A program made the position numbers and the translations under genes. From Gemmatimonadota bacterium (GTDB lineage: Bacteria > Gemmatimonadota > Gemmatimonadetes > Gemmatimonadales > GWC2-71-9), in assembly GCA_009692185.1 (NCBI GenBank), contig SHZT01000004.1, positions 62,001 to 126,000 on the forward strand: 64,000 nt of DNA, in the 5' to 3' direction. Within the stretch, counting starts at the first letter, position 1, and each line of letters opens with the position of its first letter. Below the pieces are notes generated by a model. It did not search any database and was not told where the DNA came from. It worked only from the letters and a program-made list of their open reading frames with translations. Positions 18,818-40,594 of this stretch are shown here, piece after piece.

Positions 18818-20311
<1,494 letters not shown>

Positions 20312-34553: not shown

Positions 34554-34637
34554 ATGACACTCACGGCACTTACGCACCACCACGCGAGCCATCATCGTAT
34601 GGCCCCGGCCGGAGCGAGGTTTTTCGCGCGCGTGTAG
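34554..34637 (+). CDS. hisL: histidine operon leader peptide
   Basis: 27-residue ORF beginning MTLTALTHHHASHHRMAP and ending at TAG 34635. Five histidines fall in seven residues (codons CAC CAC CAC ... CAT CAT at 34575-34595). It lies between the operon promoter and a GC-rich hairpin with a U-tract that precedes hisG, the textbook arrangement of a ribosome-stalling his attenuator: lack of charged His-tRNA stalls the ribosome, frees the upstream segment and allows read-through. No Shine-Dalgarno is visible, which agrees with a leaderless start. Confidence 0.85.
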   Translation: MTLTALTHHHASHHRMAPAGARFFARV

Positions 34638-34700
34638 TGGCTGTCTGTCGCGAGCGATCCATCGTTCCCCGGGGTAGTTGATCCCCGGGGTTTTGTTTTT
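34603..34700 (+). terminator. his attenuator: terminator hairpin and competing antiterminator segment
   Basis: Terminator: CCCCGGGG (34667-34674), 8-base loop, CCCCGGGG (34683-34690), then TTTTGTTTTT (34691-34700). Antiterminator candidate: CCCCGG at 34603-34608, just after the last His codons, can pair with CCGGGG 34669-34674 in the terminator's first arm. A further stem TCGCG/CGCGA (34624-34628/34649-34653) could form the pause or anti-antiterminator. Pairings are by eye; no folding energy was calculated. Confidence 0.8.
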
Positions 34701-34716: not shown

Positions 34717-35577
34717 ATGGCGAAGACGCAACCGATTACGCTGGCCCTGCCCAAGGGGCGGATGTTCAGTTCGCTGGTCACGTTGCTGGCCCAGTCCGGG
34801 CTGGTGATCAAGGACCACGAGCGTTCATACCGTCCCAAGACGCCTGACCAGCGGCTCGAGCTCAAGATCCTCAAGCCACAAAACATTCCCGCCCTGGTCG
34901 AGCTGGGGCGCCATGACCTGGGGTTCACGGGGCACGACTGGGTGGTCGAGAACGGCGGCGCGGTCGTCGACCTGGACGACCTCGAACTGGAGCCGGTGAG
35001 CATTGTGGCGGCGGCGGCCGAGGCGTGGCAGCCGCCCACGGCCGGCGCGGCGCCGCTCGTGGTCGCGTCCGAGTACGAGAACATCTCGCGGCGGTTCCTC
35101 GAAGGAAAAGGCTGGACGCACCGGTTCGTGCGCTCGTATGGCGCCACCGAGGTGTTTCCGCCCGAGGATGCCGATCTCATCATCGACAACTCAGCCACCG
35201 GCCGGACGCTCCGGGAAAACGGGCTCAAGATCATCGAGACGATCATGACTTCATCCACCCGGTTCATTGCGTCGGAGCGTTCGCTGGCGCGGTCGGACGT
35301 GCGGGAGTTCACCGAGGATCTCGTCCTGCTGATGCGCGGCGTGCGGGCGGCGGCGAGCCGCGTGATGCTGGAAATGAACGTGGCGAACGGGAACCTCGGT
35401 GAGGTCATTCGCCTCCTGCCAGCGATGAAGAGCCCGACGGTCTCCCAGCTCGCCGATGGCTCGCACGTGCTCAAGGCCGCGGTGCCCCAAGCCGATGTTC
35501 CCCGGCTGGTACCCAAACTCAAGAAACTGGGCGCCAGCGACATTCTGGAATACCCGATCCGGAAGGTGATTCCGTGA
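34717..35577 (+). CDS. hisG: ATP phosphoribosyltransferase (long form)
   Basis: First enzyme of histidine biosynthesis: ATP + PRPP to PR-ATP. 286 residues, the long form with a C-terminal ACT-like regulatory domain (LKAAVPQADVPRLVPKL, ASDILEYPIRKVIP), so no HisZ partner is needed and feedback by histidine is expected. N-terminal LALPKGRMFSSLVTLL, DLGFTGHDWVVENGG, ADLIIDNSATGRTLRENGL are typical. Start ATG 34717 with AGGAG 7 bases upstream, just beyond the attenuator. Overlaps hisC by GTGA. Confidence 0.95.
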   Translation: MAKTQPITLALPKGRMFSSLVTLLAQSGLVIKDHERSYRPKTPDQRLELKILKPQNIPALVELGRHDLGFTGHDWVVENGGAVVDLDDLELEPVSIVAAAAEAWQPPTAGAAPLVVASEYENISRRFLEGKGWTHRFVRSYGATEVFPPEDADLIIDNSATGRTLRENGLKIIETIMTSSTRFIASERSLARSDVREFTEDLVLLMRGVRAAASRVMLEMNVANGNLGEVIRLLPAMKSPTVSQLADGSHVLKAAVPQADVPRLVPKLKKLGASDILEYPIRKVIP

Positions 35578-37370
35578 GCGTCCCCGAGGGCCTGGTCCGC
35601 TCGGCGATCCTGGCGATGCCGGCCTACCGGGGGCTCCCTGCCGGCCGGCGACCCGAGGTGCGGCTGGACGGCAACGAGAACCCGCTCGGCGCCTCGGCAG
35701 GGGTGCTCGCGGCGCTCAAAGCGCACGATCCCGCCACACTCGCCCGGTACCCCGCCTCCCAGGCGCTTAAGGAACGGTGGGCGAGGGCGCTGGGCGTGAA
35801 ACCGGACGAACTCCTGATCACCAACGGCTCGGGGCCGGCCCTCGCGCTCGCCGGCGAGCTGGTGCTCGGCGCCGGGGACACGTGCGTCATTGCCGCGCCC
35901 TCGTTCGAGCTGTACGCGTGGGTGGCGGAGCGGCGCGAGGCGCGGGTGGTCGCCGTGGCGTGCGACGCCGCGAACCAGTTCGCGTTTCCGGTGGAGGGGT
36001 TTCGCCAGGCGATCGAAGATGCCGGTGTGCCGCCCAAGCTCGTGGTCATCGGTTTGCCCGACAACCCCACCGGCACGGCGCCGCCAACAGAGTTCATCAC
36101 CACCATGGCCAAGGCTCACCGCCGGACGCTGTTCCTGGTAGACGAGGCCTACGTCGAGTTCTATGGAGTGACCGTAGTACCCCAGGCGGTGCGCCTGCCG
36201 AACCTGCTGGTCTCCCGCACATTCTCGAAAGCGCTGGGGCTCGCCGGCGAGCGCATTGGCGGGCTCGTCGGGCACGCGGAATTGATTGACTTGGCCCGGC
36301 GGATCAACGTCCCCTACCCGGTGACGGGCATGGCGGTCGCGCTGGGCCTGGCCGCCCTGGACGATTCGAAACACATCGTCGAAACCGTGCGCGTGTCTCG
36401 GGCTTCGGTCCGGCGCCTGGCGGCGGAAGTAAAAGCCGCCGGGTTTCCCACCATCGCGACCCGCGCCAACTACGCCCTTGTGAACACCGGAAGTTCCGCG
36501 CGCGCCGGCGCGCTCACGGCGCTGCTTGGGCGACGCGGCGTGGCTATCCGGAATCGGAGTCACCTGCAAGCCATGGGGGGCTGGGTCCGGATCAGCGCCG
36601 GCAACGAGCGGGACACGGAACGATGTCTCGATGAGATACGCCTGCTGACCGCCCCTTCGCCGGAAGCCATTCTCTTCGACATGGACGGCGTACTGGTGGA
36701 TGTGAGCCAGTCCTACGACGAGGCGATCGTCCGCACGACCGCGAGTTTTCTCCCGGCCGGGAAGCTGGTGAGTCGGGAGTCCGTACTCGCGGTGAAGGAG
36801 CGACCGAATGCGAACGATGACGTGGACGCGGCGTGCCTCGCGCTCGCGAAGCTCGGGTTCAAGCCCCCGCGGAAAGAAGTCGAGCGCCGGTTCCAGGAGC
36901 TGTACCTGGGCACCAGGAGAGACCGGGGCCTTCACGCGAAGGAGAAGTGGCTGCTGCCTGCTGCCCAGCTGCGCCGGCTGGCCCAGCGTTTCAAGCTCGG
37001 CATCGTGACGGGGCGCCCGCGCGACGAAGCCCGCATGGCGCTCAAGCGGAGCGGGACCGGGCGCTACTTCAAGGTGGTCATCACGGCGGATGACGTCCGG
37101 AAAAAGAAGCCGAACCCGGATCCCATTCGAGCCGCTCTCAAGAAGCTCCGGGTGCAGACCGCCTGGATGGTGGGCGATAGTCCCGCTGACCTGCTGGCCG
37201 CCCAGTGCGCCGGCATCGCGGCGATCGGCGTACGGGCCAGCGCGCCCGACGCGGCTCGCCGGGAGACGACGCTCCGTGCGCACCGGCCGCTCGCGGTGCT
37301 GGACATGGCGAGCGACCTGTTGAACGTGCTGGACGAACGAGACCGGTATGAGAAAGAGAGCCGCGGATGA
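35574..37370 (+). CDS. hisC: histidinol-phosphate aminotransferase fused to HAD phosphatase domain
   Basis: 598 residues. Residues 1 to about 355 are a HisC aminotransferase (fold type I PLP enzyme): LDGNENPLGAS, LPDNPTGT, LVDEAYVEFYG, the PLP lysine in SRTFSKALGLAGERIGG. Residues about 363-598 are a HAD hydrolase: nucleophile Asp369 in ILFDMDGVLVD, motif II GIVTGRPRDEA, lysine in KKKPNPDPI and motif IV MVGDSPADLLAA. HisB in this operon lacks its own phosphatase domain, so the fused HAD is the natural candidate for histidinol-phosphate phosphatase, placing the two consecutive steps on one chain. Overlaps hisG (GTGA) and hisB (ATGA). Confidence 0.92.
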   Translation: MSVPEGLVRSAILAMPAYRGLPAGRRPEVRLDGNENPLGASAGVLAALKAHDPATLARYPASQALKERWARALGVKPDELLITNGSGPALALAGELVLGAGDTCVIAAPSFELYAWVAERREARVVAVACDAANQFAFPVEGFRQAIEDAGVPPKLVVIGLPDNPTGTAPPTEFITTMAKAHRRTLFLVDEAYVEFYGVTVVPQAVRLPNLLVSRTFSKALGLAGERIGGLVGHAELIDLARRINVPYPVTGMAVALGLAALDDSKHIVETVRVSRASVRRLAAEVKAAGFPTIATRANYALVNTGSSARAGALTALLGRRGVAIRNRSHLQAMGGWVRISAGNERDTERCLDEIRLLTAPSPEAILFDMDGVLVDVSQSYDEAIVRTTASFLPAGKLVSRESVLAVKERPNANDDVDAACLALAKLGFKPPRKEVERRFQELYLGTRRDRGLHAKEKWLLPAAQLRRLAQRFKLGIVTGRPRDEARMALKRSGTGRYFKVVITADDVRKKKPNPDPIRAALKKLRVQTAWMVGDSPADLLAAQCAGIAAIGVRASAPDAARRETTLRAHRPLAVLDMASDLLNVLDERDRYEKESRG

Positions 37371-38014
37371 CGCAGAAGCCGCAGAAGGGGCAGAAGATGC
37401 AGAAGGGGCAGGTGCGGAAACGCCTCCGGTCCGCCGTCGTCAGGCGTGTTACGAAGGAGACCAGCGTCAACCTGACGCTCGCGCTGGACGGATCGGGGCG
37501 GACGAAAATCAAGACGCCTATTCCATTCTTCAGTCACATGCTGGACGCGTTTTGCCGGTTCGCGAACCTGGACGTGGAACTGACAGCGTCCGGGGACCTG
37601 GAGATCGACCAGCACCACACGGTCGAGGACGTAGGCCTCGCGCTCGGTCAGGCAATCGCCGAGGCCGTGGGTGACCGGGCCGGCGTGCGGCGGTCGGCGA
37701 GCGCCTTCGTACCGATGGACGACGCGCTGGGGTTTTGCTCCGTGGATCTTTCCGGCCGGCCGTTCTGCGCCTTTGACGCCAAGTTCGACAAGAACCGGCA
37801 GGGGGACCTCGAGCTGGACCTCGTGAGCGAGTTCTTCAAGTCGCTGGCCAACACGTCAAAGGCAAACTGGCACCTGCGGGTCGAGTACGGCGAGAACGAG
37901 CATCACAAGGTCGAGGCGCTGTTCAAGAGCGCGGGCCGGGCGCTTGGTGAAGCGGTGTCGAGGGACCCGGCGCGGGCCGGTGTCGTCCCGAGCACGAAGG
38001 GCGTGCTGGAGTGA
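37367..38014 (+). CDS. hisB: imidazoleglycerol-phosphate dehydratase (monofunctional)
   Basis: Dehydrates IGP to imidazole acetol phosphate. 215 residues; the IGPD core starts at SAVVRRVTKETSVNL and has PFFSHMLDAFCRFAN, LEIDQHHTVEDVGLALG, GENEHHKVEALFKSAGRAL. No N-terminal HAD domain (unlike E. coli). The first ~18 residues (QKPQKGQKMQKGQ) come from four 9-base units CAGAAGnnn (37373-37408); ATG 37397 or GTG 37412 may be the real start. Catalytic histidine/glutamate metal ligands are intact. Confidence 0.94.
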   Translation: MTQKPQKGQKMQKGQVRKRLRSAVVRRVTKETSVNLTLALDGSGRTKIKTPIPFFSHMLDAFCRFANLDVELTASGDLEIDQHHTVEDVGLALGQAIAEAVGDRAGVRRSASAFVPMDDALGFCSVDLSGRPFCAFDAKFDKNRQGDLELDLVSEFFKSLANTSKANWHLRVEYGENEHHKVEALFKSAGRALGEAVSRDPARAGVVPSTKGVLE

Positions 38015-38022
38015 GGTGCACC

Positions 38023-38607
38023 ATGGTGGCCGTGATTGACTACGGCGCCGGGAACCTCGGGAACGCCCAGCGCGCGGTAGATGAGCTGGGGTTTCGGAAG
38101 CAGATGGTGCGCACGCCCGGTGACCTGCCGGCGGACGGCCCGATACTCCTTCCGGGGGTGGGGAACTACGGGGCGGCGGTGAAGACGCTCGAGGCCTCGG
38201 GAGTGGCCGACGCGTTGCGGACGGCCGCCGCCGCGGGACGCCAGATGATCGGCGTGTGTCTCGGGCTCCAGCTCATGTTCCGGACATCGGAAGAGGCGGT
38301 CAATTTCCTTGGGCTGGGGATTCTCGAGGGCCGGGTGCGGCGGCTGGATTCTCGCGGTCGGCCCCTGCCGCACTTGGGGTGGTGTCCGGTCGGCAAGAAT
38401 CGCACGCCGATGTATTTCGCGCACAGCTACGTGGTGGAGCCGACGGACCGGTCGTCCATCACCGCGACGGCCGAGTGGGGAGAGACGTTTCCGGCGGTGA
38501 TCCGGTGGGGTGCGATTACCGGGTTCCAGTTTCACCCGGAGCGTTCTGGGGACCCCGGCCTCGAGGTGCTGGCGCACGCGATTCGCGGGGAAGATCTGCG
38601 GCTGTGA
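38023..38607 (+). CDS. hisH: imidazole glycerol phosphate synthase, glutaminase subunit
   Basis: Class I glutamine amidotransferase that supplies ammonia to HisF. 194 residues: VAVIDYGAGNLGN, oxyanion region LLPGVGNYGAAV, nucleophile in GVCLGLQLMF, and the catalytic His-Glu in FQFHPERSGD. ATG 38023 gives the standard N-terminus with GTGAGGTG upstream; a GTG at 38011 overlaps the hisB stop. hisF follows with GTGA overlap, so the two subunits are made together. Confidence 0.96.
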   Translation: MVAVIDYGAGNLGNAQRAVDELGFRKQMVRTPGDLPADGPILLPGVGNYGAAVKTLEASGVADALRTAAAAGRQMIGVCLGLQLMFRTSEEAVNFLGLGILEGRVRRLDSRGRPLPHLGWCPVGKNRTPMYFAHSYVVEPTDRSSITATAEWGETFPAVIRWGAITGFQFHPERSGDPGLEVLAHAIRGEDLRL

Positions 38608-39374
38608 GCTGGCCGAGGATTATCGTGTGCCTCGACGTGGCGAAGGGCCGCGTCGTCAAAGGCACCCAGTTCAAGGATCTCAAGGACCAGGGTGACCTCG
38701 TGGACCTCGCGCTCCGCTATGCGGACCAGGGCGCGGACGAAATCGCCTTTCTGGACATCGAAGCCTCAGCCGAGGCTGCACAGGAGCGGAGCACGCGCCT
38801 CGACTGGGTGGAACGCGTCGCGCGGCACCTGTTCGTGCCGTTCTCGGTGGGCGGCGGTGTCCGCAGCTGGAGTGACGCGCTGCGCCTGCTTGATTCCGGC
38901 GCCGACCGAATCAGTGTCGGCTCGGCGGCGGTGGCGCGGCCGGAGGTCCTGGGAGAGATCGCCAGCCGCGCGGGTGCGCAGGCGGTCATCCTGTCGCTGG
39001 ATGCGCGGCATTCGGGCCCGGACCGGTGTATCGTGACCCGGCGGGGCGGGCGGGAGGACACGACCATCGACGCGCTGGACTTCGCCCGAACAGCGGTGGC
39101 GCACGACGCGGGGGAGATTCTGCTCAACGTGATCGATTCGGACGGCACCCGGGCAGGGTTCGATATTCCCTATACCAGGACCATTGCCGAAGGGGTCTCG
39201 GTGCCGGTGATCGCGTCGGGCGGGGCAGGGCGAGTCGAGGATTTTCTTGCCGTACTCAAAGAGGGCAAGGCGGCCGCCGCGCTCGGGGCCGGCGTTTTCC
39301 ATGACGGAACACTTACGGTGGGTAATGTGAAAACCTTCCTCACGAAACACGGCGTGCCGGTGCGGCCATGCTGA
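38604..39374 (+). CDS. hisF: imidazole glycerol phosphate synthase, cyclase subunit
   Basis: TIM-barrel cyclase joining PRFAR and ammonia to IGP and AICAR. 256 residues with RIIVCLDVAKGRVVKGTQF, DEIAFLDIEASAE, VPFSVGGGVRS, ADRISVGSAAV, GEILLNVIDSDGTRAGFD and VIASGGAGRVEDF. Catalytic aspartates in CLDVAKG (D11 region) and IDSDGT are present. GTG 38604 overlaps hisH; the frame is open upstream inside hisH. Overlaps hisA by 7 bases. Confidence 0.96.
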   Translation: MSWPRIIVCLDVAKGRVVKGTQFKDLKDQGDLVDLALRYADQGADEIAFLDIEASAEAAQERSTRLDWVERVARHLFVPFSVGGGVRSWSDALRLLDSGADRISVGSAAVARPEVLGEIASRAGAQAVILSLDARHSGPDRCIVTRRGGREDTTIDALDFARTAVAHDAGEILLNVIDSDGTRAGFDIPYTRTIAEGVSVPVIASGGAGRVEDFLAVLKEGKAAAALGAGVFHDGTLTVGNVKTFLTKHGVPVRPC

Positions 39375-40594
39375 TTCCGAGCATCGACATCCAGGGCGGC
39401 AAGGCCGTCCAGCTTCGGCGGGGGAAGGAGCTTGTCCTCACGTCCGACAAGAATCCACGCGAGCTGGCCAGTGAGTTCGGGCGCGTGGGCGAAGTGACCG
39501 TGATCGACCTCGACGCCGCGATGGGGAAAGGCGACAACCTGGCGCTGGTTGAGGAGCTGTGCGGGCTGGCGCCGTGTCGCGTCGGGGGCGGGATCCGGAC
39601 CATCGACCGGGCGCAGCGCCTGCTCCGGGCCGGCGCGCGGAAGCTCATCATCGGGACCATGGCGGATCCGGTGTTCCTCTCCGAATTGCCCCCGGGCCGG
39701 GTCATCGTGGCGCTGGACGCTGACGGAGGGAAGGTCGTGGACCAGGGGTGGACGAATTCCACCGGGGAGACGCCCATAGACCGCGCGCGTCGGCTGACGC
39801 CTCACGTCTGCGGCTTCCTTTACACGCTGGTGGACCTGGAGGGGACGGAGCAGGGAATCGACCTGGCCCGGGTCAAGGCGCTGGCCGAGGCCACGAAGAT
39901 CCCGATCACCGCGGCCGGGGGCATTACCAAGGTGTCGGAGGTTGCGGCCCTCGACCAGATGGGGGTGGACGCCCAGGTCGGTATGGCGTTGTACCAAGGC
40001 CGCTTCACCGCCGCCGAGTGCCTGGTGGCGGTCATGGATTTCGCCCGCGACCGCGGGTACGTGCCGACGATCGTCCAGGACGTGCGGGACGGCCGGGTGC
40101 TGATGTTCTCGCGCTCGACGCCGGAAACGCTGCGAGAGGCGATCGAGAAAGGCGAGACGATACTGCATTCCCGCAGGCGCGGGCGCTGGCGGAAGGGCGA
40201 GGAATCTGGCAACACCCAGAAGCTGGTGCGGGTCGAGGTGGACTGCGACCGCGACACGCTGCTGTTCCTGGTTGAGCCGTCAGGGCCGGCGTGTCACACC
40301 GGGAAAGAGTCCTGCTTTGGGGAGCGCCCGTTTTCCCTCGAGCGCCTGCAGGAGATCATTTCGCATCGCCGCTCGGCGCCGCCGGGCACGAGCTACACGC
40401 AGGCCCTCCTGTCAGACCCCGTGGCGCGGAAGGCAAAACTCCTGGAGGAAGCCGCGGAGCTGGCGGACGCGCCGACGCACGAGAATGCGCAGTGGGAAGC
40501 GGCCGACTTGCTGTATCATGCGCTGGTAGAGATGGGGGCGCGGGGACTCAAGCTGAGCGAAGTGATTTCGGAACTGGAGGCGAGACAGCGTTAA
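39368..40594 (+). CDS. hisA: trifunctional HisA-HisI-HisE fusion
   Basis: 408 residues in one frame. Residues 1 to ~228: HisA isomerase barrel (LIPSIDIQGGKAVQLRRGK, VTVIDLDAAMGKGDN, CRVGGGIRTIDRA, FLYTLVDLEGTEQGID, ITAAGGITKVSEV). Residues ~230-318: HisI PR-AMP cyclohydrolase (VPTIVQDVRDGRVLMFSR, RWRKGEESGNTQKLV, metal ligands in EVDCDRDTLLFLVE and CHTGKESCF). Residues ~320-408: HisE PR-ATP pyrophosphatase (SLERLQEIISHRRS, SYTQALLSDPVARKAKLLEE, AADLLYHALVEM). It combines steps 2, 3 and 4. HisI-HisE fusion is common; an N-terminal HisA is not. The stop overlaps the convergent gene in TTAA. Confidence 0.92.
   Translation: MLIPSIDIQGGKAVQLRRGKELVLTSDKNPRELASEFGRVGEVTVIDLDAAMGKGDNLALVEELCGLAPCRVGGGIRTIDRAQRLLRAGARKLIIGTMADPVFLSELPPGRVIVALDADGGKVVDQGWTNSTGETPIDRARRLTPHVCGFLYTLVDLEGTEQGIDLARVKALAEATKIPITAAGGITKVSEVAALDQMGVDAQVGMALYQGRFTAAECLVAVMDFARDRGYVPTIVQDVRDGRVLMFSRSTPETLREAIEKGETILHSRRRGRWRKGEESGNTQKLVRVEVDCDRDTLLFLVEPSGPACHTGKESCFGERPFSLERLQEIISHRRSAPPGTSYTQALLSDPVARKAKLLEEAAELADAPTHENAQWEAADLLYHALVEMGARGLKLSEVISELEARQR

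Follow-up and report, generated by a model that had tools for sequence, protein, structure and literature searches.

Several fusions of histidine biosynthesis genes have been catalogued. A 2007 survey gives hisIE, hisNB, HIS7 and HIS4; a hisA-hisI fusion is absent from it, nor did it find a HIS4-like protein among prokaryotes (PMC1963479). A 2024 survey described four archaeal assemblies in which HisA/F is fused to HisIE (PMC11237513). Another set of described systems links the HisA family to the TrpF step. PriA has been called exclusive to Actinomycetota (PMC13055916), and the papers cited here describe takeover of the TrpF role by HisA-family enzymes for that phylum only (PMC5404923, PMC13055916). 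In its TrpF-only enzymes, shown as such by complementation, residues Trp145 and Arg85 (PriA numbering) have been lost (PMC13055916, PMC5404923), and Arg143 has been linked to TrpF activity (PMC4732765).

The DNA analysed here, referred to as the window, is a stretch of 64,000 nucleotides from a Gemmatimonadota bacterium (contig SHZT01000004.1, positions 62,001 to 126,000). It contains a tightly overlapping his operon whose last gene joins HisA, HisI and HisE (Table 1). This frame begins with ATG and continues for 408 codons without interruption. Its product matches the Pfam families PF00977 (His_biosynth; residues 2-214, 153.8 bits), PF01502 (PRA-CH; residues 250-317, 85.4 bits) and PF01503 (PRA-PH; residues 325-406, 62.7 bits), each far over the curated cut-off, and the HisE part also passes the cut-off of TIGR03188. 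An AlphaFold model, built with a 34-sequence alignment of fusions, has a mean pLDDT of 92.6 and a pTM of 0.81; HisA's final helix (215-222) and HisI's opening strand (232-238) are joined without a low-confidence stretch. The preliminary description of one polypeptide carrying the three domains, directly next to HisF, is thus borne out.

Table 1. Features of the his operon and its leader region (window coordinates).
Feature	Position	Strand	Details
Putative his leader peptide, MTLTALTHHHASHHRMAPAGARFFARV	34554..34637	+	27 residues, five His in eight codons
Terminator-like GC hairpin and T-run in the leader-hisG gap, likely attenuator	34667..34700	+	
hisG, long form, regulatory C-terminal domain	34717..35577	+	PF01634, PF08029
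hisC with HAD phosphatase domain, candidate histidinol-phosphatase	35574..37370	+	TIGR01141 and PF13419/TIGR01548, one frame
hisB, dehydratase only	37367..38014	+	PF00475, 195 bits
hisH	38011..38607	+	TIGR01855, 172 bits
hisF	38604..39374	+	TIGR00735, 294 bits
hisA-hisI-hisE fusion	39368..40594	+	408 aa; 7-base overlap with hisF end
HisA domain of fusion	39368..40033	+	residues 1-222
HisI domain of fusion	40058..40327	+	residues ~231-320
HisE domain of fusion	40337..40591	+	residues 324-408

In Foldseek searches, the halves of the model match solved HisA/PriA structures (TM 0.84, target-normalised, for the fused HisA against PriA 3zs4) and solved bifunctional HisIE structures. The protein shares with HisIE (PDB 6j22/6j2l) the HisI-HisE order, with 39% identity in the structure alignment, but it has a complete HisA ahead of HisI. 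Its architecture is of the same kind as that of the archaeal HisA/F-HisIE proteins (PMC11237513); those come from archaea only, whereas the present fusion is mapped over bacteria as one clade, together with its operon and partners. Fungal HIS4 (HisI-HisE-HisD; PMC1963479) is likewise a multi-step his fusion containing HisI-HisE, but it has HisD and no HisA, whereas the window fusion has HisA and no HisD.

A single frame of this kind might arise if separate hisA and hisIE genes had been joined by an assembly or frame error. This reading is scarcely credible and is contradicted by a same-genus relative, whose fusion copy is 72% identical to that of the window, and by many other, independent single-frame fusions. 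In particular, 41 single-frame HisA+HisI proteins, the same-genus copy included, could be aligned across the junction, where the spanning stretch measures 40-47 residues in all of them; the frame error that the preliminary description had proposed to look for at this position was not found.

The residues conserved in each domain support the proposal that the three domains together would cover the route from PR-ATP to PRFAR. In the HisA domain, Asp7, Arg77, Asp117, Trp128, Thr153 and Glu158 are invariant in all 41 fusions. The equivalents of PriA Asp11, Arg85, Asp130, Trp145 and Thr170 are kept throughout, so that the fused HisA has both the catalytic Asp11 and the ProFAR-binding residues Arg85, Trp145 and Thr170; at the equivalent of PriA position 143 the window protein has Gln. 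The HisI metal-site residues D292/C293/D294/D296, C309/H310 and C316 are also invariant (41/41), as are the acidic HisE residues E360, E361, E364 and D380 in the 34-sequence alignment. The earlier statement that all key motifs are intact therefore holds for the key residues of the three domains, except at the second catalytic position of HisA (PriA Asp175), which is Glu158 in the window protein and Glu in all 41 fusions. This conservative change is also seen in nine non-fused relatives, and the fused domains are therefore assigned to a Glu-type HisA subfamily. Since the fused HisA is the sole HisA in most fusion genomes, it is expected to function despite the Glu at 175.

No other HisI is encoded in the genome and no other PRA-PH match reaches HisE strength, so the his pathway depends on the fusion. 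HisD is a separate gene on the same contig, about 38 kb past the window end. The HisC-HAD fusion, which is common to many related operons, could supply the histidinol-phosphatase otherwise absent from the operon. We infer that the trifunctional protein would convert PR-ATP successively into PR-AMP, ProFAR and PRFAR, and that HisF/HisH, encoded next to it, would use the PRFAR. Upstream of hisG, a comparable leader, MTTVREIHHAHHHRPAPAGTKAARV, lies at the corresponding position of the sister genome, together with a similar hairpin and T-run. Of 17 fusion operons, 9 have a His-rich leader, compared with 1 of 7 non-fused operons and 0-2% in shuffles. An Rfam scan of the his leader gave nothing above family threshold there, and its folding is not clearly more stable than that of shuffles (z -1.4), so the argument for attenuation draws on the leader peptide, the hairpin and T-run, and the sister genome. 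From these features, leader and hairpin likely constitute an attenuator.

It is also conceivable that the fusion exists for channelling, with PR-ATP passed to PRFAR via adjacent active sites. A single chain does hold three consecutive steps, and its linker regions are short and conserved in length. However, the domains run counter to the order of the pathway, steps that are not consecutive are fused in other operons of the clade (HisA-HisI-HisC, HisA-HisI-HisE-HisD), and co-expression with fixed stoichiometry would account equally well for the conservation; sharing one chain is by itself no proof. Channelling is thus an unlikely reason for the fusion, and the clade offers natural material for asking whether joined consecutive enzymes channel at all.

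HisA-HisI-HisE is a fusion of an already known type, spread between many phyla. A genome-contig scan with an open-frame check found single-frame fusions in Gemmatimonadota, Melainabacteria, Cyanobacteria, Myxococcota, Acidobacteriota, Spirochaetota, WOR-3, Planctomycetota and Pseudomonadota and in two archaeal records, the phyla being assigned by record titles; the 41 aligned proteins, which also include relatives from a genome search, come from about nine phyla, archaea included. Of 200 Gemmatimonadota drawn evenly, 33 gave a near full-length one-frame match and one further match was weaker. The preliminary description had called the addition of HisA rare, an assessment that holds in part only, given its presence in some nine phyla and in 33 of the 200 Gemmatimonadota and the earlier archaeal reports. 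A 450-aa frame (G183:C272:3877-5202), which matches the whole fusion at 39% identity, may be an independent HisA-HisIE fusion.

Phylogenetic trees unite the HisA domains of the fusions in a single clade (support 92/88 with 41 rows, 99/94 with 58 rows), which adjoins non-fused Glu-type HisA inside the Glu-type subfamily. The Gemmatimonadota fusions fall in at least two places: those of the window's genus group with Cyanobacteria, Melainabacteria and relatives, and the remaining ones with Myxococcota and relatives. A single Gemmatimonadota clade is rejected (p-AU 0.0006 with five rows, 3e-05 with 22 rows, for groups that were named after the first tree was seen). The gene order HisG, HisC-HAD, HisB, HisH, HisF, HisA-HisI-HisE also recurs in several phyla with the fusion. 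One fusion clade, split Gemmatimonadota and a recurring operon order together argue for lateral movement of the operon: the fusion clade would travel between phyla in a compact his operon, which Gemmatimonadota would have acquired at least twice. A quick HisF tree carried a long-branch warning, with HisA taken for HisF in some loci, and its placement of the window HisF was left unused. Two records titled Bordetella parapertussis (L037) and Bifidobacterium breve (L042) have a HisA that groups with MAGs of other phyla, and these titles look wrong.

Larger and variant fusions were also found. In genus g67 of family f7 (Gemmatimonadota), the fusion frame extends over 895-1161 codons in eight genomes, and in all four of these that were scanned (L197, L199, L203, L211) a full histidinol dehydrogenase (391-405 bits) follows HisE, giving HisA-HisI-HisE-HisD in one frame (864-881 residues). 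By its domain content, this predicted four-domain protein is a HIS4-like fusion in bacteria that begins with HisA. In two of the 41 aligned fusions, from Spirochaetaceae (L032, L033), the order is HisA-HisI-HisC, without HisE. A clade that reaches up to HisA-HisI-HisE-HisD lengthens the list of prokaryotic his fusions. HisH and HisF are in one frame (HIS7-like) in L174, L175, L176, L206, L210, L212 and L022, operons that also carry HisA-HisI-HisE.

The window's genome (99.94% complete) has, besides the fusion, a gene for a stand-alone HisA, flanked by an M23-type peptidase gene and ftsY. Most of the 17 relatives examined have this gene in the same slot, M23 peptidase - hisA - ftsY - recG, where M23, FtsY and RecG are names from our own reading of the sequences. 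The 18 stand-alone HisA proteins form their own clade (99/99); PriA of S. coelicolor, the single PriA in the tree, is a long branch outside it. The genome has trpD, trpC, trpB and trpA, but TrpF gave no match up to E = 1, with 14 of 14 controls positive; trpF is thus absent with other trp genes present, the setting by which SubTrpF is recognised. Among the 51 genomes searched, all five with the fusion, the window's included, lack TrpF and have a stand-alone HisA, and five further relatives without HisI/HisF and without TrpF have retained it, with gene absences resting on draft genomes throughout. TrpC is present in nine of these ten TrpF-negative genomes, the exception (G017) being 61% complete.

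These distributions suggest that the older, ftsY-linked HisA of the phylum most likely became re-specialised for the TrpF step and stands in for the trpF that is missing. It could instead have some other role, with the TrpF step taken by an unrecognised enzyme, since the gene lies beside ftsY, distant from the trp genes, and the protein evolves fast (54% identity between the genus's two genomes, versus 65-78% for their his proteins). That reading is improbable: the stand-alone HisA is retained in trpC-positive genomes that have neither trpF nor a his pathway, and its residue pattern matches that of the TrpF-only enzymes. Three genomes with a stand-alone HisA but without the his pathway (G036, G040, G021) have weak or divergent TrpF-like matches, which weighs against re-specialisation; divergent TrpF-like proteins are found in G036 and G038 (L188, L193; ~76-81 bits, with a KICC motif) and in G040, and in G036 and G040 the TrpF-like gene and trpC are on different contigs.

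In the stand-alone HisA, Trp145 is kept in 4/4 his+/TrpF+ genomes and lost in 10/10 of the TrpF-negative genomes named above, all ten of which keep Arg143. For Trp145 retention (4/4 versus 0/10) the Fisher p is ~0.001, but the tree of these proteins allows a single loss of Trp145, so the genomes are not independent and the match with trpF loss does not represent many events. One exception (G044, 71% complete) lacks TrpF and the his pathway, yet keeps Trp145. The stand-alone HisA of the window's genome has Ser at Trp145, Ala at Arg85 and Arg at Thr170, and keeps both catalytic Asp and Arg143. The last three residues would also suit a bifunctional, PriA-type enzyme that performs both the PRFAR and the TrpF step and makes the fused HisA partly redundant. 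This possibility is about as improbable as the unrecognised enzyme, given that Trp145, Arg85 and Thr170 have all been replaced and that comparable losses abolish HisA activity in Actinomycetota enzymes (PMC13055916, PMC5404923).

Re-specialisation to TrpF agrees better with the closest precedents. Like SubTrpF and SubTrpF2 (PMC5404923, PMC13055916), the stand-alone protein has the HisA fold, occurs where trpF is absent and has lost Trp145 and usually Arg85, and in Ornithinimicrobiaceae, too, such an enzyme coexists with a separate HisA. It differs in belonging to Gemmatimonadota, in forming its own ftsY-adjacent clade and in coexisting with a HisA that is fused to HisIE, and it is known here from sequence. 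The most likely arrangement in the window's genome is a division of labour in which the fusion would serve histidine only and the ftsY-linked HisA tryptophan; that the fused HisA is the sole HisA beside HisF in most distant fusion genomes supports its histidine role. With Trp145 and Arg85 kept and Gln at 143, the window's fused HisA has a pattern opposite to that of the TrpF-only enzymes. Taken together, we consider it probable that a trifunctional fusion for histidine arrived with a laterally moved operon and that the stand-alone HisA was re-specialised to the TrpF step. If so, Gemmatimonadota would provide a second case of a HisA-family enzyme re-assigned to the TrpF role. Living relatives show the stages his+/trpF+, his-/trpF- and his as a fusion without trpF. 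As to the order of events, we lean slightly towards a course in which loss of trpF and of histidine synthesis came first, the ancestral HisA then took over as TrpF, and histidine synthesis was later regained repeatedly via a mobile operon with a three- or four-enzyme polypeptide.

An extra His_biosynth gene of the window's genome, on contig C3, was considered as a further HisA and rejected, since the HisH2-/WbpG-like genes beside it mark it as an AglZ/HisF2 glycan gene. The second His_biosynth gene of L036 was likewise set aside as a parallel case, its neighbours indicating a similar HisF2/HisH2-type cluster. Elsewhere in the window, a TPP riboswitch (64.6 bits) lies at 18877-18976.
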